Positions 6,510 to 23,116 of a DNA stretch of 32,971 bases are shown one piece after another. Below the pieces are notes generated by a model. The model saw nothing but the letters and a program-made list of their open reading frames with translations. It did no database searches and was not told the DNA's origin. This DNA comes from Polyangiaceae bacterium (GTDB lineage: Bacteria; Myxococcota_A; Polyangia; Polyangiales; Houyiibacteriaceae). The position numbers and the translations under genes are program-made. Positions within the stretch are counted from its first letter, which is position 1. Every line of letters starts with the position of its first letter. Where the stretch lies: positions 1 to 32,971 of the forward strand of contig JALVDI010000273.1 of NCBI GenBank assembly GCA_027009115.1, read 5' to 3'.

Positions 6510-7175
6510 ATGGACGCCTGGCGCCGAGAAGCGACGGCGGTCGCGCTGCAGGGGGCGTTGATCGCGCGCCGTTTGATCCCGCGGCGCCTGCGCCGACCGC
6601 CGGGCCCGGGCGTCGAGGCGCGGGGGTTGGTCGTTTTCGTCCATGGCCTGCTCGCTGCGGGGCCCGTCTTCGATCCGCTTCGCCGGCGGGTGGCCCGAGA
6701 GCTGGGGTTGGCCACCCTCGACATCACCTACGGACCCCACCGGCACCTCGAATCGGTCGCTGCCGAGCTCCAGGCTCGTATCGAGGAGGTCGCGGAACCG
6801 CACCAGCCGGTCGACCTGGTGGGTCATAGTCTCGGCGGGCTCATCGCGCGGTGGTACCTGCAGCAGCTCGGGGGGAGGGGCCGGCGGCTGGTCACGATCG
6901 CCACCCCCCACGCGGGTACGCCGGTCGCGCGCTGGGTGCCCGGGCCCATGGGCAGAGCTTTGCGTCCGGGGAGCCCGTGGCTGCGACGTCTTGGTGATTC
7001 GGTGGACATCCCGCACCTGGTCGTCGTGGCCGACGGCGACCGCTTGGTCCCTCCCCAGAGCGCGGCGGCGGTCCGCGATGCGCGGATCGAGCGTTTCCCG
7101 GGGCTGGGCCACAACGAGGTCCTCTACGACCCGCGTGTTCAGCAGACGGTGGTCGAGGCGCTTGCGGGCCGCTGA
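6510..7175 (+). CDS. Lipase-like alpha/beta hydrolase
   Basis: This 221-residue protein resembles PGAP1/triacylglycerol-lipase-type hydrolases. It has the oxyanion 'VVFVHGLLAAG' (41-51), nucleophile elbow GHSLGG (Ser107), 'TIATPHAGTPVA' (a lipase-typical loop after strand 6), Asp in 'VADGDRLVPP' (about 175-177) and His201 in 'GLGHNEVLYD'. The triad is complete. No signal peptide is clear; the N-terminal 35 residues are Arg-rich. The last 37 nt overlap the end of the convergent pilS gene. Substrate is unknown. Confidence 0.85.
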   Translation: MDAWRREATAVALQGALIARRLIPRRLRRPPGPGVEARGLVVFVHGLLAAGPVFDPLRRRVARELGLATLDITYGPHRHLESVAAELQARIEEVAEPHQPVDLVGHSLGGLIARWYLQQLGGRGRRLVTIATPHAGTPVARWVPGPMGRALRPGSPWLRRLGDSVDIPHLVVVADGDRLVPPQSAAAVRDARIERFPGLGHNEVLYDPRVQQTVVEALAGR

Positions 7176-8788
7176 GTCCGCGGGAGGCGTACTCGGACCT
7201 CGGCACCGCCGCCGGGGGCGTCGCCGACCTCGATGCGGCCTTCGTGTCCGTCGACGATCTGCTTGACCAGGGCGAGGCCCAGGCCGATGCCGTGGTCGCG
7301 ATTGCTGTAGAACATCTCGAAAAGGCGCTCGCGATCGGCGGCGGGGATCCCCGGTCCCTGGTCGCGCACGAGAATCGTGACTTGGTCGCGGTCGCCGTCG
7401 ATCTCAACGGTGACGACTCCCCCCAGGGGCGATGCCTGGACGGCATTCTTCAGGAGGTTCCACAAGAGCTGCCGGAGTTGGTTGGGGTCGACCTCCGCGA
7501 GCACCGGCTCGCCGGCGCGTTGCAGCTCGATCGTCACGGACCCGAGGGTGCTGTCGGTGCGGGCCACGGCGGCGAGCTCCTCGGCGAGGGCGGCCACGTC
7601 GACCTCCGTAGGTCGCGGCCGGCTCGGGCGGCTCAGGTCGAGCATGGTTGTGACGAGCTCGTTGAGCCGGTCCACCTCTTTGAGGACGATTTGGATGAGG
7701 TGCTGATCCTCTGGGCCGAGCTGGGGCAGCTCGGAGAACATTTGCACCGACCCCGAGATGGAGCCCAGCGGGTTGCGGATTTCGTGGGCGAGGGCCGCGG
7801 CGAGGCGGCCCAGAGCGGCGAGGCGTTCGGCGCGCTCGGCCTGTTCGCGGAGCGCCCGGATCTCGGTCAGGTCCTGGAAGACGAGGAGAAAGCCGTCGCC
7901 GCCCCGCAGCGGTGTGCGCGTGAACCCGACGGGGAACTCTTCGCCGTCGGGCCTCCGCGCAATCGACTCGCCGCGGCCCTCCCCCGTCGCGCCGGGGATG
8001 AGGCGCTTGACATCGGTGCCGGCGAGCGTCTCAGGGCTGGCGCCGAGCATCGCCGCACCTGCAGGGTTGACGGTTCGCACCCGTCCGCTGGCGTCCGTGG
8101 TGAGAAGGCCCGCGTTCATCGAACGGACGATGTCCTCGTTGAGGCGGGCGAGCGCGGCGGCTTCGGCCTCGGCCTCGGCGAGGCGGCCTCCCGTCTGCGA
8201 GAGGCGGTCGGCGAGACTGCCGGCGAGGAGCGCGACGAGGCCCAAGCCCACACCGTTCGAGAGCAGAGCGTAGCCGAGCTCGGAGCGCGTCGGATCGTAG
8301 GCGTGAGGCCGCTGGTCCGGCGGATGCGGAATCAAGCCGCTCGTGACCGCGTAGGCCACGGCGAGGTAGCCCAGCAGCGCGAGCCCCGCGATGGTGCGGG
8401 AGGCGGCCGGGCCGAGGGTCATCGCCGCCGCCAGGATCGGGATGCCGTAGAGCACCGTGAAGGGGCTGCCGGCAGCACCCGAAAGATAGACCAGGAAGGT
8501 CGTGGACAGCAGATCCCAGCCCACCTGTGCGTAGGCGTTGGCCTTCAGGTGCTCACCGCCGAGGAGGGCGCCGGCGAAGAGCGCCGAGGCCGCGTAGATG
8601 GCGATGGTGAGCCCGATGAGGGCGGCGGGCGTGAAACCCGAGTAGCCCGCTGTGCGCGTGTCGACCGTCAGCAGGAGGGTCCCGCCGAGCAGCAGAGTGG
8701 CGACGAGTACGCGGCCGGCGACGAGCCACTGAAGGCGCCGCCGGAGCGCCGCCTGGCCGGGGCGCGGCCCAGGGCCTGGGGCTTCCAT
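7139..8788 (-). CDS. pilS: PilS-type membrane sensor histidine kinase
   Basis: This 549-residue kinase has the PilS layout. About six TM helices lie in residues 20-195, a PAS domain at about 215-310 ('MNAGLLTTDASGRVRTVNPAG'), then HisKA with the phospho-acceptor His335 in 'LAHEIRNPLGSISGSVQ', and a HATPase domain with N box 'NLLKNAVQAS', G1 'DQGPGIP' and G2 'GIGLGLALVKQIVDGHEG'. PilS phosphorylates the NtrC-type regulator PilR, which drives sigma54-dependent pilA expression. Its position 8 nt after pilC supports the assignment. No pilR is in the window; the convergent lipase gene follows and its end overlaps pilS by 37 nt. Confidence 0.87.
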   Translation of the reverse strand: MEAPGPGPRPGQAALRRRLQWLVAGRVLVATLLLGGTLLLTVDTRTAGYSGFTPAALIGLTIAIYAASALFAGALLGGEHLKANAYAQVGWDLLSTTFLVYLSGAAGSPFTVLYGIPILAAAMTLGPAASRTIAGLALLGYLAVAYAVTSGLIPHPPDQRPHAYDPTRSELGYALLSNGVGLGLVALLAGSLADRLSQTGGRLAEAEAEAAALARLNEDIVRSMNAGLLTTDASGRVRTVNPAGAAMLGASPETLAGTDVKRLIPGATGEGRGESIARRPDGEEFPVGFTRTPLRGGDGFLLVFQDLTEIRALREQAERAERLAALGRLAAALAHEIRNPLGSISGSVQMFSELPQLGPEDQHLIQIVLKEVDRLNELVTTMLDLSRPSRPRPTEVDVAALAEELAAVARTDSTLGSVTIELQRAGEPVLAEVDPNQLRQLLWNLLKNAVQASPLGGVVTVEIDGDRDQVTILVRDQGPGIPAADRERLFEMFYSNRDHGIGLGLALVKQIVDGHEGRIEVGDAPGGGAEVRVRLPRTQRPASASTTVC

Positions 8789-8796
8789 GGAGGCCG

Positions 8797-10008
8797 TTAG
8801 TTTGCCTGGACCTTACCGGCAATCTCGAAGATCGGCATGTACATGGCGATGAGGATGACGCCGACGATGCCGCCGATGAAGACCATCATCATCGGTTCGA
8901 GCAACGAGGTGAGGGCGGCGACGGCGACGTCCACCTCGTCTTCGTAGAAGTCGGCGATCTTGTTGAGCATGGTGTCCAAGGCGCCGGTCTGCTCGCCGAC
9001 GCCGATCATCTGGACGACCATCGACGGGAACACCTTGGTCTCCATCAGAGGTTCGGCCATCGTCCGGCCTTCGCGGATGCGATCCGCCGTCTTCTGGATG
9101 GCTTCCTCGATGATCACGTTGCCGGAGGCCTGCCCCACGATGTTCATGGCGTCGAGGATGGGGACGCCCGAGCTGAGGAGGGTGCCCAAGGTGCGGGTGA
9201 AGCGCGCGACGGCGATCTTTCGGATGACCGGGCCGATCACGGGCATACCGAGGAAGAGCTTGTGCCAGAAACGCCGTCCGCTCTTGGTCCGGTAGTGGTA
9301 GGTGAGGGCGGTCACGAGGCCTGCGACGGCGAGGAAGATCCACAGAGCATTGCCCAGGAACCACTCGGAGGCGGCGATGACCATCTTCGTCAATCCGGGG
9401 AGGCTGTCCTCGCCGCCGAACTCGGCGAACATGTTCTGGAAGGCGGGGATGACCCAGGTGAGCATCACGATGATGACGACGATCGCCACGCACAACACGC
9501 CGATCGGATACACCATCGCGCCTTTGACCTGGCGCTTGAGCTTGACGCGCTTTTCGATGTAGACGGAAAGGCGCTGCAGGATGGTGTCGAGGATGCCGCC
9601 CATCTCGCCGGCGGCGACCAGGCTGACGTAGAGGTTGTCGAAGACCTTGGGGTGGCGCTTGAGCGCGTCCGAGAAGGTGCCGCCTCCCTCGACGTAGGCC
9701 TTGATGTCCTTTTGGATGGTGCGGAACTGTTTGTTGTCGCCTTGGCTCGAGAGGATCTCTAGACACTGCACGAGGGGCAGGCCCGCGTCGATCATCGTCG
9801 CGAACTGTCGGGTGAAGACCACCAGCTCCTTCTCGGAGACCGGTGAACCGAAGTTGATGTAAATCTCCTTCGGCTTCTTCTTTACCTTGACGGGGTTGAG
9901 CTGCTGGGCCCTGAGCCGAGATTGGACGAGCTCGGCCGTCTCGGCCTCCATCGTCCCTTTTCTCACCTCGCCGTTACGGCCTTTTGCTTCCCACGCCCAC
10001 TCGGCCAT
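8797..10008 (-). CDS. pilC: Type IV pilus inner-membrane platform protein
   Basis: PilC is the polytopic platform on which the PilB and PilT motors act. The 403-residue length is typical. A short N-terminal domain ('AEWAWEAKGRNGEVRKGTME', then a basic 'VKVKKKPKE' stretch) is followed by two T2SF domains (about 60-185 and 262-388), each with 'FTRQFATMIDAGLPL' or 'FTRTLGTLLSSGVPI' signatures, and three TM regions (about 168-195, 220-240, 375-395). ATG 10008 has a strong SD (GGAGG, 4-5 nt away). It has its own promoter-like sequence upstream and is followed 8 nt later by pilS. Confidence 0.95.
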   Translation of the reverse strand: MAEWAWEAKGRNGEVRKGTMEAETAELVQSRLRAQQLNPVKVKKKPKEIYINFGSPVSEKELVVFTRQFATMIDAGLPLVQCLEILSSQGDNKQFRTIQKDIKAYVEGGGTFSDALKRHPKVFDNLYVSLVAAGEMGGILDTILQRLSVYIEKRVKLKRQVKGAMVYPIGVLCVAIVVIIVMLTWVIPAFQNMFAEFGGEDSLPGLTKMVIAASEWFLGNALWIFLAVAGLVTALTYHYRTKSGRRFWHKLFLGMPVIGPVIRKIAVARFTRTLGTLLSSGVPILDAMNIVGQASGNVIIEEAIQKTADRIREGRTMAEPLMETKVFPSMVVQMIGVGEQTGALDTMLNKIADFYEDEVDVAVAALTSLLEPMMMVFIGGIVGVILIAMYMPIFEIAGKVQAN

Positions 10009-10018
10009 GCGACCTCCA

Positions 10019-10036
10019 GGTGCGCTCGAACGCACC
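10019..10036 (-). promoter_or_regulatory. Leader hairpin abutting the pilC ribosome-binding site
   Basis: GGTGCG and CGCACC form a perfect 6-bp stem with a 6-nt loop. On the mRNA it ends 1 nt before the GGAGG of pilC. It could limit or protect ribosome access; no ligand is suggested by the sequence. Confidence 0.35.
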
Positions 10037-10051
10037 CCCTCGACAACGGCT

Positions 10052-10067
10052 CCATCCTAATGGATGG
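10052..10067. promoter_or_regulatory. Inverted repeat over the pilC -10 region (operator-like)
   Basis: CCATCC-TAAT-GGATGG is a perfect 6-bp inverted repeat with a 4-nt centre. It covers the candidate -10 box (10054-10059) of pilC, so a bound protein would block transcription. No regulator for it can be named. Confidence 0.35.
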
Positions 10068-10083
10068 CAGTCCTGGCGGTCAA
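10054..10083 (-). promoter_or_regulatory. Sigma70-like promoter for pilC-pilS
   Basis: On the minus strand TTGACC (10078-10083) is followed after 18 nt by TAGGAT (10054-10059). The -35 matches five of six and the -10 four of six consensus bases. The predicted transcript start is near 10047, giving a leader of about 39 nt that includes the hairpin at 10019-10036. Confidence 0.45.
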
Positions 10084-10120
10084 AGCCGGCGCAAACTTCC
10101 AGGGGTCCGGGACGGCGGGC

Positions 10121-11794
10121 TCATCTGCGATAGGGGTTGAAGATGAGGTCGTCGGCGGCGCTCATGGTGGGGGCGGCGCTCATGGTGGGGGCGGCGCTCA
10201 TGGTGGGGGCGGCGCTCATGGTGGGGGCGGCGCTCGTCGGCTGCATGGCCGGCTCCGTGGTCGGCTCGTCGTGGCGGCGCGCGCGCTCCCCCCGGCGGCC
10301 TCGTCGGGGCCTGCGGCCTGTCCGATGCCTCGACGAACGATCGCTGGGTTCTTCGCTCCGTTCGGCTCGCTCTTCGGCGGCCTGAGCGGTCCCTGCGTTC
10401 GGCTCGGTGGGCCCCTCCTCACCGGTCTCGTCGGCGGCGGCTTCCTCCTGCGCCCCAGCGAGATCCGCGGCAGGCTCGCTCGCCATGGCCGGCGGTGGAG
10501 GTGGGTCTTGCGCGCCTCGAGCTTCGTCCGGCACCACCGTCGGCGCGGGCTGTGCCGTCGCCTCCTCGGGCGCGGGCTCCCGGCCCTCGAAGAGCACGGC
10601 GGCCGCCGCGCCCGCCAACAGCAGGGCCGCAGCCACCCCCCAGAACACGCCACGCCTCTTGGCTTCGTTCCGCCCTGACTCGGGCGCGGCCGTGAGGGTG
10701 ACGGCGTCGGGGGCCGGCCGGTGTGGGACCGAGAGGTTGGAGCGGCTTCCGTCTCGGGGGATCGGCATCGCGGCCTCGCCGATCTCGGAGTGGCCGAGGC
10801 GTTCGATCGCCGCGCGCACCCGGGCCCGCTGCTCGTCGAGCTTCTCCCCGAGTCGGTCGCGCACCTCGCCCCCGACCTGCCGAGGGGTCGCGATCCCCGG
10901 ACCGCTCATCGCCACCGCTTCGAGCGCCTCGGCGAATTCGTCCGCCGACTGGAAGCGAGCTTCCGGGTCACGGTCGAGGGCCTTGGTGAGCAGCTCGTCG
11001 AAAGGCGCGAGCTCGGGGTAGAACTCGGAAACCGACGGGATCGGTTCCTGAAGGATCTTGTTCAGCGTCGAGGCGTTGTTCTGACCGCGGAAGAGGCGCC
11101 GTCCGGTCAGGGATTCCCACAGGATGATGCCCATCGAGAACAAGTCCGAGCGCTGGTCGGCAAAGCCCGTCGAGGCCTGCTCCGGCGCCATGTAGGCCAG
11201 CTTGCCTTTGAACTGTCCGGCGCGGGTCGAGGTGAGGCGTTTCTCGGCCTTGGCGACGCCGAAGTCCGTGATGCGGCCGATGCCGTCCACGCCGACCATG
11301 ATGTTGTGCGGCGAGACGTCGCGGTGGACGAGGTGCAGCGGCTCCCCCTGCTCATCGCACAGGCGGTGTGCCGCTCCAAGGCCCCCGAGAGCATCCAGGA
11401 CCACGCGAACCGTGACGGGGATGTCCAAGCGCGCGCCGGCGCGGGCGGCGGCGGTGAGCAGCGCGCCGAGGTGGTCCCCCTCGATGTACTCCATCACGAG
11501 GAAGAAGCCGTCGCCTTCGGTGTCGCTGATGTCCAGTGTCGGTACGACGTTCGGGTGTCGGATCCGGGCAGCGAGGCGTGCCTCGTCCAAGAACATCGAG
11601 ATGAACTCTTCTTCGTAGGCGAGGTGCGGGTGCAGCACCTTGATCGCCACGAGCCGCTCGAATCCTGCGACGCCGCGGGCGCGCGCCACGTACACGGCGG
11701 CCATCCCGCCGGAGGCGAGCTGTGTGAGCACTTCGTAACGGCCGAGCTGCCGGCCGGCCATGTTGCGGGCGAGGTCTTGCGCCGCGGCTGTCAA
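10121..11794 (-). CDS. Transmembrane Hanks-type Ser/Thr protein kinase
   Basis: This is a 557-residue kinase. The domain (about 20-290) has the glycine loop 'LASGGMAAVY', Lys52 in VAIKVL, a catalytic loop 'HRDVSPHNIMV' (Asp159), DFG (177-179) and MAPEQAS, so it should be active. A linker leads to one TM helix (about 382-402), then a predicted periplasmic tail rich in Pro, Ala, Glu and Arg. The tail ends in four copies of a 6-residue repeat (SAAPTM) and the terminus 'IFNPYRR'. The start is TTG 11794, chosen because GGAGG lies 7 nt before it and it overlaps the upstream stop (TTGA); ATG 11761 has no SD. Substrates are unknown. Its place between pilT and pilC suggests, but does not prove, a link to pili. 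Confidence 0.9.
   Translation of the reverse strand: MTAAAQDLARNMAGRQLGRYEVLTQLASGGMAAVYVARARGVAGFERLVAIKVLHPHLAYEEEFISMFLDEARLAARIRHPNVVPTLDISDTEGDGFFLVMEYIEGDHLGALLTAAARAGARLDIPVTVRVVLDALGGLGAAHRLCDEQGEPLHLVHRDVSPHNIMVGVDGIGRITDFGVAKAEKRLTSTRAGQFKGKLAYMAPEQASTGFADQRSDLFSMGIILWESLTGRRLFRGQNNASTLNKILQEPIPSVSEFYPELAPFDELLTKALDRDPEARFQSADEFAEALEAVAMSGPGIATPRQVGGEVRDRLGEKLDEQRARVRAAIERLGHSEIGEAAMPIPRDGSRSNLSVPHRPAPDAVTLTAAPESGRNEAKRRGVFWGVAAALLLAGAAAAVLFEGREPAPEEATAQPAPTVVPDEARGAQDPPPPPAMASEPAADLAGAQEEAAADETGEEGPTEPNAGTAQAAEERAERSEEPSDRSSRHRTGRRPRRGRRGERARRHDEPTTEPAMQPTSAAPTMSAAPTMSAAPTMSAAPTMSAADDLIFNPYRR
10155..10235 (-). repeat. 18-bp tandem repeat in the kinase tail
   Basis: Four near-perfect 18-bp units start at 10161, 10179, 10197 and 10215 and encode SAAPTM hexapeptides. 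Codon use is the same in every copy, so the array expanded recently at the DNA level. Confidence 0.92.
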
Positions 11795-12783
11795 AACGAG
11801 CCCTCCAGCGCGAGGCCGGCTCCGGCCGGGCCCACGCCGAGGGAGGGGCGGAGGCGTCCGCGCGCTTCGGCTGAGTCCTCGCGGCCACCCCAGTCGGTGA
11901 AGATCGCTGCGAGCAGTGTGACGGTGGCCAGGCCCGCGGTCACACCGATGAGGGCGTTGGTTCGCTTCTCGGCTCGCTGTCCTTCGTCGAGGAGGGACGA
12001 GGCCCGCGGGAAGTCGAGCGCCCCCATGGTGCGCTCCTCACGGGCCGCCGTCTCGTAGTCGTCGTTGATCGCCAGGGTGTCGAGGCCCGACCAGATCAGC
12101 AGGGCCCCGGCGCCCGCGGTGAGCACGAGGGAGGTCACGAAGAGGGCGGGGCGAATGCCGCCGCGCTCGGGTTCGGTGGGGGGCACCGGGGTAGGACTGG
12201 GCTCCTCGTCCAAACCTTGGTCGTCTTCGGGCGGCGGGAGCGCCGGTCCCTCGGGCCGTTCGAAGCGGAGCGTGCGTTGCTCCCCGGCGCTGCCGGTCAT
12301 CGTTTGGGTGCGCGTGCCGTTGTCGAAGACCGCGCCGACCGTCACTTCGCGGCCTGGCTCGACGAAGAATGCAGGGTGGGCCATCAGCGCCCCGTCGAGC
12401 TCCACGGTGCATTCGGCGTCGCAGGTGACCTCGACGTAGACGAAGCGCTCGCGGGCCTCGTCGACGACTTGCTGCGCCTCGTCGACTTCTGGGGCGTCGG
12501 GCCATTTGCCGATGAGCCGCAGCGCGAGGGTGCCGGCCCGGAGCTCGTTGCCGGCTCGCCGATGGGCGCGGATGGCCTGAAGCACCACCGGTGCGGCGGG
12601 GACCAAGTTGTTGGCCATCTCAAACCAGCGCGCGGCGGCGGGGTAGTCCCCCTCGAGGTAGGCGGCAGACCCGCGGTCGAAGGCATCGGCGGCTGCCTGA
12701 CGATCACTCGCCGACTGCGCCGCGGCGGACGCAGTCAGGATGGTCGCCGCCGCGACGACCCCGAGCCTACTCAGGCGAGACAT
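11791..12783 (-). CDS. TPR/PEGA-like envelope protein with two TM segments
   Basis: This 330-residue protein has a cleavable signal peptide (about 1-23, ending ASAAAQS). A TPR-like helical region follows (30-115: 'AFDRGSAAYLEGDYPAAARWFEMAN'), then a PEGA-like beta domain (116-175) starting 'VEVTCDAECTVELDG', whose Cys121/Cys125 may form a disulfide. An acidic Pro-rich linker and two TM helices (about 211-232 and 276-296) come next, and the C-terminus is 'LRPSLGVGPAGAGLALEGSF'. Proteins of this design are frequent beside Ser/Thr kinases in Myxococcota; the role is unknown. Its stop overlaps the kinase start (TTGA), implying translational coupling and related function. ATG 12783 is chosen because the signal peptide begins there. 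Confidence 0.8.
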   Translation of the reverse strand: MSRLSRLGVVAAATILTASAAAQSASDRQAAADAFDRGSAAYLEGDYPAAARWFEMANNLVPAAPVVLQAIRAHRRAGNELRAGTLALRLIGKWPDAPEVDEAQQVVDEARERFVYVEVTCDAECTVELDGALMAHPAFFVEPGREVTVGAVFDNGTRTQTMTGSAGEQRTLRFERPEGPALPPPEDDQGLDEEPSPTPVPPTEPERGGIRPALFVTSLVLTAGAGALLIWSGLDTLAINDDYETAAREERTMGALDFPRASSLLDEGQRAEKRTNALIGVTAGLATVTLLAAIFTDWGGREDSAEARGRLRPSLGVGPAGAGLALEGSF

Positions 12784-13007
12784 GAACCCAAATCCCCGAA
12801 ACGAATCAGAAATAGAATGGCGCTTGCGCGACGTCGGCGTCAAGGCCGGCGGGGCCAGCAGCCCGCCTCAACACCTCTTCGTGCAGCTCGGGGCCGAGGA
12901 CACCGTCCTCCGCGACGCATCGTGCTTTGAAATCCTCAAGATTCTCACGCCAGGCAGCATCCAGGGGCTCTCTCGCGACCGCGATCCATCCACGGGGGGG
13001 CGGACTG
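12784..13007. other. Intergenic region between pilT and the TPR/PEGA gene
   Basis: A 224-nt gap on a minus-strand block. Near the downstream gene the minus strand has TTGACG (12838-12843) and the AT-rich stretch CATTCTATTTCTGATT (about 12802-12819). The spacing to the best -10-like hexamer (20 nt) is poor. A promoter for the TPR/PEGA-kinase pair is likely here, but I cannot place it. No clear terminator follows pilT. Confidence 0.4.
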
Positions 13008-14132
13008 CTAGCGGCCGCGGGGCCGGCGTTGCCCGCCGCCGGCGTGGGATTGGTTCTCGATCATCTGCTGGAGCTCCGCCGGCTCGGGGGAGCGCCCGAG
13101 GGCCTCATCGAGGGCGATCACCCCTTGTCGGTAGAGCTTGTAGAGCGCCTGGTTCATCGTCTGCATGCCGCTTTGACCCTGGCCCGTCTGCATCAGGCCG
13201 TAGATCTGGTGGATCTTGTTCTCGCGGATGAGGTTTCGGATGGCGTAGTTCGGGATCATCACCTCCGCGGCCATGGCGCGCCCGGGGCCGTCGGCCCGAG
13301 GCAGCAGCATCTGGGTGACGACCGCCTGCAGAACAAAGCTGAGCTGGGCGCGGATCTGCGGCTGTTGATGGGGCGGGAACACATCGATGACGCGGTTGAT
13401 CGACTGGACGGCGCTGTTCGTGTGGAGCGTGGCGAAGACCAGGTGCCCCGTCTCGGAGATGGTCATGGCGGCCTCGATGGTCTCGAGGTCGCGCATCTCC
13501 CCGACGAGGACGACGTCGGGGTCCTGTCGAAGCACGTACTTGAGCGCGCCCTTGAACGAGGCCGTGTCGGCGCCGACCTCCCGTTGGTTGACGACGCAGA
13601 GCTTGTTCATGTGGAGGTACTCGATCGGGTCCTCCACGGTCATGATGTGCTGGCGCCGTTCGGAGTTGATCCGGTCGATCATCGCCGCAAGCGTTGTCGA
13701 CTTACCGGAGCCGGTGGGACCGGTGACGAGCACGAGCCCACGGGGGAGGGTGCAGAGGTCGCGCACGACGGGAGGCACGTTCAGCTCCTCGAGTGTCCGG
13801 ATCTTGAAGGGGATGGCGCGAAACGCGCCGGCGACGGCGCCGCGCTGCATGAACACGTTGGCGCGGAAGCGGGACAGCCCCTTGACACCGAAGCTGAAGT
13901 CGAGCTCGTTGTGCTTTTCGAACTTGATCTTCTGCTCCTCGGTCATGACCTCGTAGCAGAGATACTTCGTCTCGACGGGGCCGAGGGGAGGGGTCCGTAG
14001 CTGCACGAGGGAGCCGTCGATGCGCAGCTGAGGTGGCGTTCCGGTGGTGACGTGGAGGTCGGACGCACCTCGCTGAATCATCACCTGGAGGAGCTGCCGA
14101 AGGCTGATACGAGGGCGTTCGTCCTGGTGCAT
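13008..14132 (-). CDS. pilT: Type IV pilus retraction ATPase
   Basis: PilT is the hexameric cytoplasmic motor that depolymerises pili. The 374-residue product has the N-terminal PAS-like domain, Walker A GPTGSGKST (138-146), an Asp box 'TVEDPIEYLH', Walker B 'DPDVVLVGEMRD' with catalytic Glu212, a His box 'GHLVFATLHT', and the retraction-specific AIRNLIRE (297-304), which separates PilT from PilB. ATG 14132 is preferred over GTG 14147 because a TATCCT box ends 6 nt upstream, fitting the leaderless pattern; neither has an SD. It follows the FAD-protein gene by 30 nt. No pilB is in the window. Confidence 0.96.
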   Translation of the reverse strand: MHQDERPRISLRQLLQVMIQRGASDLHVTTGTPPQLRIDGSLVQLRTPPLGPVETKYLCYEVMTEEQKIKFEKHNELDFSFGVKGLSRFRANVFMQRGAVAGAFRAIPFKIRTLEELNVPPVVRDLCTLPRGLVLVTGPTGSGKSTTLAAMIDRINSERRQHIMTVEDPIEYLHMNKLCVVNQREVGADTASFKGALKYVLRQDPDVVLVGEMRDLETIEAAMTISETGHLVFATLHTNSAVQSINRVIDVFPPHQQPQIRAQLSFVLQAVVTQMLLPRADGPGRAMAAEVMIPNYAIRNLIRENKIHQIYGLMQTGQGQSGMQTMNQALYKLYRQGVIALDEALGRSPEPAELQQMIENQSHAGGGQRRPRGR

Positions 14133-14138
14133 GGAGCG

Positions 14139-14144
14139 AGGATA
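14139..14144 (-). promoter_or_regulatory. Candidate -10 box of pilT
   Basis: TATCCT on the minus strand ends 6 nt before ATG 14132. No SD is present. It would let pilT be transcribed separately from the purM-purN-FAD genes. Confidence 0.38.
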
Positions 14145-14162
14145 CACCGGGCGCGGCCACGC

Positions 14163-20437: not shown

Positions 20438-23116
20438 GTGCAGGAGGCGTCGCACATCGACCTGCGAGGGCTGGCTCCAGGCCTCTCTGCCACCTGCGCA
20501 GACTACCTCGCGAGCTATCGCGGGAGCTTCGAGGCCGCGGTGCGTCGCGGTGAGCCGGGGGTTGCGACCTCGCGGCGTTTCGCCAGCGTTCTCGACGGGC
20601 TGCTCAGCGCGCTCTTCTGCGCGGCGAACGCGGCGGCCGGCACAGGCCGGGGAGGCCGAGTTGCGCTCGTCGGCGTCGGCGGTTACGGCCGCGGCATCGT
20701 CGGGCTCCACAGCGACGTGGACCTGCTCTTTCTTTGCGACGACCCCAGCGACGAGCGGGTGCGTCGCGTCGCCGAGGGGCTGCTCTATCCCCTGTGGGAT
20801 CTCGGCGTCGACATCGGGCACGTCGTGCGGGGGGTCGACGAGACTTTGCGGTTGGCACGGGAGGACCTGCGGACGACCACCACGCTCCTCGATTTTCGAA
20901 GGGTCGCCGGGGACGAGTCGATCGTCGCCGACCTCCAACGCGGGGCGCGCGTGCAGGTCTTCGATCCGCACCTGCGCGCCTTCCTCGACATGCTCGAGCG
21001 CGACACCGAGGAGCGGCATGAGCGCTTCGGTGACTCGCTCTACTTGCTCGAGCCCGAGGTGAAGTTGGGGCGCGGTGGGCTGCGGGATCTCGACGTGGCG
21101 GCATGGGCGGCGCGGGCTCGTTGGGGGGTGCGGGGGGGCGACCCTTTCGTCCGCACCGGGGCGCTGCTGCGCCGGGAGCACGAGGACCTCGAGACCGCTC
21201 GCGAGTTCCTCTGGCGCGTCCGCAACTACCTCCACCTGAAAGCGCGTCGCCCCCAAGATCGGCTGACCTTCGCGGACCAGGAGGAGATCGCCGTCGAGCT
21301 AGGTTTCGTCGACGGCATCGTCTTGGCCGTCGAGCAGTTCATGCAGGCGTACTACCGCCACGCCCGCGTCGTGGCGCAGACCGCTGAGCGCCTGCTCGAT
21401 CGTGCGCGCCCGCCGCGGCGCCGTGGCCCGGCGACGCAGCACGACCTCGGCGATGGAACGGCGATCTTCGACGAGCGGGTCACCTTTGTCAGCTGCGAGC
21501 GCCTGGCAGCTGAGCCAAGCCTCGCGTTGCGTCTCTACCGGAAGGTGCTGACCACCCAACGAGCACCGTATCCCTATGCACGGGACGCGGTCGTGCGGGC
21601 CGCGATCGATGAGCCCTGGCGCGAGCGGCTTCGCTCCTCGGAGGAGGCGCAGCGGCTCTTCCTCGATCTCTTGTGCACGGCCCGGTCGGCGCCGGTACGC
21701 CGCGGCTCGTTGCTCGACGAACTGCACGAAGTCGGTCTGACTGTGGCGATGGTCCCCGAACTGGAGCCGCTTTTGGGGCGCGTCCATCACGACGTCTACC
21801 ACGTCTACACCGTAGACGTTCACGTGGTGCGCTCCGTCGACCGTCTGCGCGAGTTGTTCTCGGGTCGGAGAGTGCGCGAGCTGCCGCACGCCAGCCGCCT
21901 CGCCGCCGAGGCGCCGAGGCGCCAACCTCTCTTCCTGGCAACCTTTCTTCACGCCCTGGGGAAGGTGCACGGGGGCGACCGCCCTGAGCGTGGAGCAGCG
22001 ATGGCGCGCCCCGTCGCCGAACGTCTTGGCCTCTCGCGGCTCGATGCGGACCATGTCGCCTGGCTCATTGCTGAGCAGAAGAGCCTCTACCACTGGGCGA
22101 CGCGCCGCGATACGAGCGACCCGGAGGTGCTCCAGGAGCTGGCGCAGCGTGTCGAGTCGCCCGACCGTCTGCGCGATCTCTATCTGCTTACGGTCGCGAC
22201 CCTCTCGACGACCAACCCGACGGCGCTCACCGCATGGAAGGCCCGGATGCTCGAGGATCTCTACGTCGGGCTGCTCGCCACACTCGAAGACGGTGGGGCG
22301 GGGAGCGCGGGGCGGGCGCGCCGCATCCGCGAGGAGGTTCGGGTGGGGTTCGTGGGCGACAAAGGACGGGCGGACCTCGAAGAGTTCCTCGAGCGGGTGC
22401 CCGAGCGCTACCTTCTGGCCAACCCGGTCGACGTGGTCCGGCGGCATGCGCGCATCTACCGCGATGCGGATGCGCCGTTGACGCTCTGCGCCGGGCCGGC
22501 CCCGAGCGAGGAGCTCATGGAACTGGTGGTCCTGACCGCGGATCGGCCGGGGCTCCTCGCCGATGTCGCGGCGGCGTTCGCGGCCAACCGTGTGGGGGTC
22601 GTCGACGCTCAGATCTATACCCTCGGGGACCAGGCGTTCGACGTGTTCTTGCTGCGCCGGGAGGGGCGCGCGGCGCGGGGTTCGACGGAACGCTCCCCGG
22701 CCCCCGATCCAGCGGCGTTGGAGCGTTTGGAGGCCGATCTGCGGGCCCGCCTCGCTGGGGAGGTGAGCGTCGAGGAGCTGCTGGCGCGCGCCCCAAGGGG
22801 GCCCTCGTGGGCTCGTCGTCACAGCCCCGAGGTGCCGACGGAGGTTTCCGTGGACAACGAAGCCTCGCCGCGATTTACGGTAGTCGACGTGTTCACCCGC
22901 GACCGCGTGGGCGTGCTGCAGGTCATCGCTCAGACGCTTCATGAGCAGGGCCTGACGATCGCCCTGTCGAAGGTGAACACGGAGGGGGAGCGCGTGGCCG
23001 ATGTGTTCTATGTTCAAGACGCCGACGGGGGGAAGGTGCGGGACCCAGAGCGGTTGAAGACGCTCCAAGAGGCCCTATGCGCCCGCCTTGGGCGGCTGCC
23101 TGTGGAGCGCTCGTGA
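20438..23116 (+). CDS. glnD: PII uridylyltransferase with a degenerate HD domain
   Basis: GlnD uridylylates PII proteins at low glutamine through an N-terminal nucleotidyltransferase, and removes UMP at high glutamine through an HD domain. Length (892) and order are normal. The transferase motif 'GGYGRGIVGLHSDVDLLFL' (81-99) keeps Asp93 and Asp95, and the GlnD linker follows. The HD region (about 440-600) starts well with 'RVHHDVYHVYTVDVHVV'. Then the HD dyad is His505-Ala506, the next His position reads 'AEQKSLY' (546-547 Glu-Gln), and the last Asp ('TVAD') is Thr588. Two ACT domains close the protein (about 694-740 and 815-865). The start is GTG 20438; the stop overlaps the next gene (GTGA). 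Uridylylation is expected; removal of UMP is doubtful. Confidence 0.94.
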   Translation: MQEASHIDLRGLAPGLSATCADYLASYRGSFEAAVRRGEPGVATSRRFASVLDGLLSALFCAANAAAGTGRGGRVALVGVGGYGRGIVGLHSDVDLLFLCDDPSDERVRRVAEGLLYPLWDLGVDIGHVVRGVDETLRLAREDLRTTTTLLDFRRVAGDESIVADLQRGARVQVFDPHLRAFLDMLERDTEERHERFGDSLYLLEPEVKLGRGGLRDLDVAAWAARARWGVRGGDPFVRTGALLRREHEDLETAREFLWRVRNYLHLKARRPQDRLTFADQEEIAVELGFVDGIVLAVEQFMQAYYRHARVVAQTAERLLDRARPPRRRGPATQHDLGDGTAIFDERVTFVSCERLAAEPSLALRLYRKVLTTQRAPYPYARDAVVRAAIDEPWRERLRSSEEAQRLFLDLLCTARSAPVRRGSLLDELHEVGLTVAMVPELEPLLGRVHHDVYHVYTVDVHVVRSVDRLRELFSGRRVRELPHASRLAAEAPRRQPLFLATFLHALGKVHGGDRPERGAAMARPVAERLGLSRLDADHVAWLIAEQKSLYHWATRRDTSDPEVLQELAQRVESPDRLRDLYLLTVATLSTTNPTALTAWKARMLEDLYVGLLATLEDGGAGSAGRARRIREEVRVGFVGDKGRADLEEFLERVPERYLLANPVDVVRRHARIYRDADAPLTLCAGPAPSEELMELVVLTADRPGLLADVAAAFAANRVGVVDAQIYTLGDQAFDVFLLRREGRAARGSTERSPAPDPAALERLEADLRARLAGEVSVEELLARAPRGPSWARRHSPEVPTEVSVDNEASPRFTVVDVFTRDRVGVLQVIAQTLHEQGLTIALSKVNTEGERVADVFYVQDADGGKVRDPERLKTLQEALCARLGRLPVERS

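Follow-up and report, generated by a model that had tools for sequence, protein, structure and literature searches.

The window analysed here (the whole 32,971-nucleotide stretch, from a genome referred to as G000) contains a gene, glnD, whose reading frame is unbroken over 892 codons. The product gives a full-length match to TIGR01693 (619.5 bits against a curated cutoff of 519.4, residues 35-884), which places it among the GlnD proteins, and is 46-70% identical to the GlnDs of most relatives (36% at the lowest). The features discussed below are as follows.

20438..23116, + strand: glnD, 892 aa, GTG start; [protein-PII] uridylyltransferase with a degenerate HD domain (TIGR01693, PF08335, ACT)
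20672..20731, + strand: nucleotidyltransferase motif GVGGYGRG...SDVD, intact (codons; residue alignment)
20714-20716, + strand: Asp93, GAC (codon read from the window)
20720-20722, + strand: Asp95, GAC (codon read from the window)
21002..21394, + strand: GlnD_UR_UTase domain, PF08335 (125.8 bits and 121.5 bits in two profile searches)
21725..22273, + strand: HD domain, residues 430-612, degenerate (alignment; weak Pfam HD score; predicted helical fold)
21821-21823, + strand: His462, CAC, first HD ligand, retained (alignment, codon)
21950-21952, + strand: His505, CAC, dyad His, retained (alignment, codon)
21953-21955, + strand: Ala506, GCC, in place of the dyad Asp, ligand lost (alignment, codon)
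21980..21982, + strand: Arg515, CGC, replacing the GGDH His; ligand lost (alignment, codon)
22073-22075, + strand: Glu546, GAG (codon)
22076..22078, + strand: Gln547, CAG, replacing the EEH/RQH-motif His; ligand lost (alignment, codon)
22199..22201, + strand: Thr588, ACC, replacing the final TVAD Asp; ligand lost (alignment, codon)
22508..23092, + strand: conserved C-terminal pair of ACT domains, at about residues 691-770 and 800-885 (Pfam ACT)

Elsewhere in the window, a minus-strand stretch (7139-14147) encodes a PilS-like histidine kinase, proteins of the type II secretion F and E families and a protein kinase, and resembles type IV pilus genes.

Both ends of the protein carry what is expected of a GlnD. 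The GG...DxD nucleotidyltransferase motif is present, and its residues G81, G84, R85, D93 and D95 are invariant in an alignment of 44 sequences, in agreement with the intact transferase aspartates reported in the initial annotation. The C-terminal ACT pair is likewise present, with 95-97% of the conserved ACT columns retained across the family of the window genome (f1, 34 genomes), whose members are uncultured organisms related to myxobacteria. The HD domain between them gives 13.6 bits with Pfam HD (PF01966), below the gathering cutoff of 22, which is a weak test on its own, as no intact GlnD HD domain was scored for reference.

GlnD HD domains share the ligand pattern H ... HD ... H ... H ... 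D. The corresponding columns were placed by alignment to GlnD of E. coli K-12 (L062, from NC_000913) and to many relatives; the set is complete in the E. coli protein and 58 further relatives, and the HD motifs of two alphaproteobacterial GlnDs (L325, L326) are intact. The window protein departs from this bifunctional UTase/UR set, keeping two of the six ligands (His462 and His505) and having lost four (D506A, H515R, H547Q and D588T). All three losses originally noted, at positions 506, 547 and 588, are thus real at the level of both codons and alignment; that list was incomplete, having overlooked H515R.

The comparison of HD sites covered Myxococcota, E. coli and the two Alphaproteobacteria. 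In all 34 genomes of f1 the GlnD lacks at least one Asp ligand, whereas the sister families have intact sites, so the losses are indeed shared by a clade, a point that the initial annotation had proposed to check by alignment. Since independently assembled f1 genomes share them, neither chance nor assembly error accounts for these losses. D588 is lost in every f1 genome readable at that site (33 of 33) and D506 in 32 of 34, being retained in genus g8; H515 is lost in most f1 genomes, and H547 throughout except in G007, G014, G009 and G029. Two intermediate states are seen: D588 is the sole clear loss in g8, and the fourth His is kept in G009 and G029. This graded pattern suggests, as far as present-day sequences can tell, that D588 was lost first. 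HD sites are intact in the sister families of the order (f3 to f8, f11 and f12), and elsewhere in the phylum the dyad and the last Asp are kept in all 38 GlnD HD regions readable in frame (out of 40 taken), with one His possibly absent from two of the sample (L274 and L287). In a tree built without the HD columns, the f1 GlnDs sit among their nearest intact relatives. This tree does not resolve them as one clade, but a topology test does not reject such a clade either (log-likelihood difference 6.8, p-AU 0.34), and a single ancestral ligand loss in f1 is possible.

Degenerate GlnDs are also found elsewhere in the order. In family f9 (L143, L147, L148 and L199-L204), GlnD lacks at least four and up to all six ligands, with the first His replaced by Gln in most members, and the five included in the tree form one clade (support 100/100); this damage is independent of that in f1. 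Among the six f9 genomes with a degenerate GlnD, three have only this copy, and the other three have one or two GlnDs besides it. Three of these additional GlnDs were read (L040, L042 and L174); all are intact and group among Polyangiaceae-type GlnDs, which suggests that they may have been acquired, a pattern resembling replacement by acquisition. A very divergent, single-copy GlnD from family f2 (L055, genome G034) keeps the HD dyad, while the other four ligand positions have been lost (Q-HD-V-R-I). In family f10, G042:C174:12620-13597 (L061) is a GlnD fragment with an internal TGA, a possible pseudogene.

The degenerate domain bears the marks of continued, albeit weaker, constraint. Within f1, 82% of the non-ligand HD columns conserved in intact GlnDs are retained, against 0-17% for the four lost-ligand columns and 97% for the transferase columns; the commonest replacements are Ser or Ala for D506, Gln for H547 and Ile or Val for D588. 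The transferase lies equally far from a common outgroup in f1 and in near intact relatives (0.92 in both), whereas the HD distance is 0.78 in f1 against 0.58. The HD/transferase distance ratio is 1.59 within f1 against 0.64 in intact relatives, corresponding to an HD domain that, relative to the transferase, evolves some 2.5 times faster. Part of this excess is explained by a slow transferase, because the ACT/transferase ratio is likewise raised in f1 (1.98 against 1.06); the HD/ACT ratio goes from 0.60 in intact relatives to 0.79 in f1. Median dN/dS between close pairs (which are non-independent) is 0.068 for the HD domain and 0.040 for the transferase, values indicating that constraint on the HD domain is relaxed yet persists as purifying selection. 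AlphaFold2 predicts the window GlnD with a mean pLDDT of 87.1 and a pTM of 0.82, including confidently predicted HD helices. A PDB sequence search at E 0.001 gave no match to this GlnD, and Foldseek gave matches of low TM-score to GlnE and to a tRNA-processing enzyme.

In the surrounding pathway, PII is encoded by a single gene of the window genome (G000:C486), and its T-loop GGKREVYRGSAYVVDF contains Tyr51 and thus provides the expected substrate; this glnB lies upstream of a glutamine synthetase gene (glnA) with the adenylylation-type stretch KDLYALSPEE. The window genome encodes GlnE, as do most f1 genera. No GlnE was detected in any of the 19 genomes of g2 (G001, G012 and G017-G033) or in either genome of g6 (G005 and G013), where a synthetase of the glnB-linked (adenylylation-type) class was also not found beside glnB. 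GlnD and PII persist in these two genera without the classical target (glnB itself being undetected in G021 and G025), and PII modification there would have to act on other targets. Loss of GlnE was considered as a cause of the HD-site loss and rejected, as GlnE is undetected in g2 and g6 only and is kept in the window genome and other genera. Loss of AmtB, considered as a reason for dispensing with fast removal, was rejected as well, AmtB being detected in 31 of the 34 f1 genomes and not detected in G000, G013 and G014; the missing AmtB of G000 may be a draft gap.

Taken together, these observations make it likely that the window GlnD is a glutamine-gated, one-way PII uridylyltransferase carrying a structural pseudo-HD domain. 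From its motifs we infer a working transferase, glutamine gating and no UMP removal. The N-terminal domain would uridylylate PII at Tyr51 when glutamine is low, with the two ACT domains gating the reaction; the HD domain, presumably unable to bind metals, would not remove UMP and would persist to link the transferase to the ACT domains in a structural or regulatory capacity. Clearance of PII-UMP would then fall to growth dilution, PII turnover or some other hydrolase. Removal is probably absent because the site has lost both Asp ligands and two of its four His ligands, ligand loss is clade-wide, no new conserved metal-binding residue is seen in the alignment and the transferase motif is invariant. 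The original proposal that this GlnD adds UMP and probably cannot remove it is therefore well supported by sequence, as a predicted activity. The accompanying suggestion that the domain has become a pure glutamine sensor finds no support, the two conserved ACT domains, which are the usual seat of glutamine sensing, having been kept.

The alternative that survives best, which we nevertheless regard as unlikely, is that UMP is still removed enzymatically, though by a different protein (for example a phosphodiesterase or a stand-alone HD hydrolase), leaving GlnD functionally split. An eraser beyond detection is plausible because PII-UMP lingering after the return of nitrogen would be physiologically costly, and the three f9 genomes that hold extra GlnDs next to a degenerate one, with three such copies reading intact, could be taken in the same sense. 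The initial annotation had proposed looking for a second HD-type protein, and the search yielded only widespread CCA-type HD proteins and no specific replacement. With a profile of intact GlnD HD domains, the high-scoring match in the f1 genomes tested was GlnD alone, the next matches being CCA-type HD proteins with weak scores; beyond GlnD, no GlnD-like HD protein was thus found in f1. One stand-alone HD protein of about 309 aa (G000:C638:507-1433, L295) has all ligands present, no nucleotidyltransferase head and a weak match to the GlnD HD profiles. Its closest resemblance is to the HD portion of CCA-adding enzymes (TIGR02692, 155 bits, below the cutoff). It occurs across most of the order whatever the state of GlnD, and was not found in the four f3 genomes. 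Since this distribution does not track the loss of the GlnD site, a CCA-type HD protein was rejected as a specific replacement eraser, and G000:C638 is at best a weak candidate. A second GlnD was not found in the window genome (a draft of 5.4 Mb in 702 contigs, 94.6% complete), where the other PF08335 match (C512) was rejected as a GlnD, being GlnE; given the draft state, a second enzyme could be missing from the assembly.

It is improbable that the transferase domain itself removes UMP by running in reverse with phosphate or pyrophosphate, in the way that the nucleotidyltransferase fold of GlnE serves both directions on glutamine synthetase. In favour of this idea, the removing half of GlnE is phosphorolytic, and among solved structures GlnE domains (1v4a and 3k7d) come closest in fold to the transferase part. 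However, the two activities have separate sites in characterised GlnD (PMC3480911), and the transferase sequence shows no change hinting at a new activity. We find it quite improbable that the protein as a whole is decaying and has ceased to modify PII: the lack of detectable GlnE throughout g2 and g6 does point to a cascade eroding there, but GlnD is retained in 34 of 34 f1 genomes with an invariant transferase motif and very low dN/dS, and PII retains Tyr51. Finally, it is highly improbable that the HD domain still binds metal through substitute residues and still removes UMP, for although His462, His505 and their neighbours H451, D452, D460, R557, D558 and D561 do not vary among the aligned members, the flanking invariants are common to intact GlnDs and hence not new ligands, and the replacements are variable (Ala/Ser/Gly; Gln/Arg/Tyr; Ile/Val/Thr) and for the most part not ligands, so that the supply of ligands by neighbouring residues, named at the outset as what would overturn the prediction, is not borne out by the alignment. 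The invariant first His and dyad His could reflect leftover binding.

Returning to a one-way uridylyltransferase as the preferred reading, a broader evolutionary proposition can be put forward tentatively, at a little under even chances: f1 would have turned a reversible PII cycle into a one-way, glutamine-gated tag without a dedicated eraser, keeping the dead HD domain as a scaffold, while f9 would have lost the site separately, some of its members having an additional intact GlnD. The PII/GlnD system is a model of bicyclic covalent signalling cascades, and its reversibility is assumed; the purpose of PII modification has already been raised as a question in a review (PMC4285133). A clade apparently without an eraser makes the need for reversibility, a non-catalytic role of the HD domain and the means of resetting PII testable, and the intermediates (g8; G009 and G029) offer a ready graded series.

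In GlnD of R. rubrum the HD domain removes UMP and the N-terminal domain transfers it (PMC3480911), and the same division of labour between HD removal and N-terminal transfer holds for characterised GlnDs (PMC4285133). The window protein resembles the bifunctional enzymes of E. coli and R. rubrum in its domain order (nucleotidyltransferase, GlnD_UR_UTase, HD and two ACT domains), in its transferase motif and in full-length similarity; unlike them, it lacks four of the six HD metal ligands, and UMP removal is not expected of it. By sequence it is thus assigned to GlnD and falls outside the bifunctional class at the ligand set. The openly licensed papers searched yielded no description of a naturally occurring GlnD whose HD site is dead. 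The actinobacterial GlnD/GlnK systems (S. coelicolor and C. glutamicum) likewise depart from the E. coli cycle: GlnD there adenylylates PII, differing from the uridylylating GlnD (PMC4285133), and GlnK of C. glutamicum is described as controlled by proteolysis and membrane sequestration besides modification (Strosser 2004, as cited in PMC4285133). A further likeness is to the pseudoenzyme domains of bifunctional regulators (for a general review of pseudoenzymes see PMC10211241), in which one catalytic half is lost and the fold is kept, as appears to be the case for the window GlnD.
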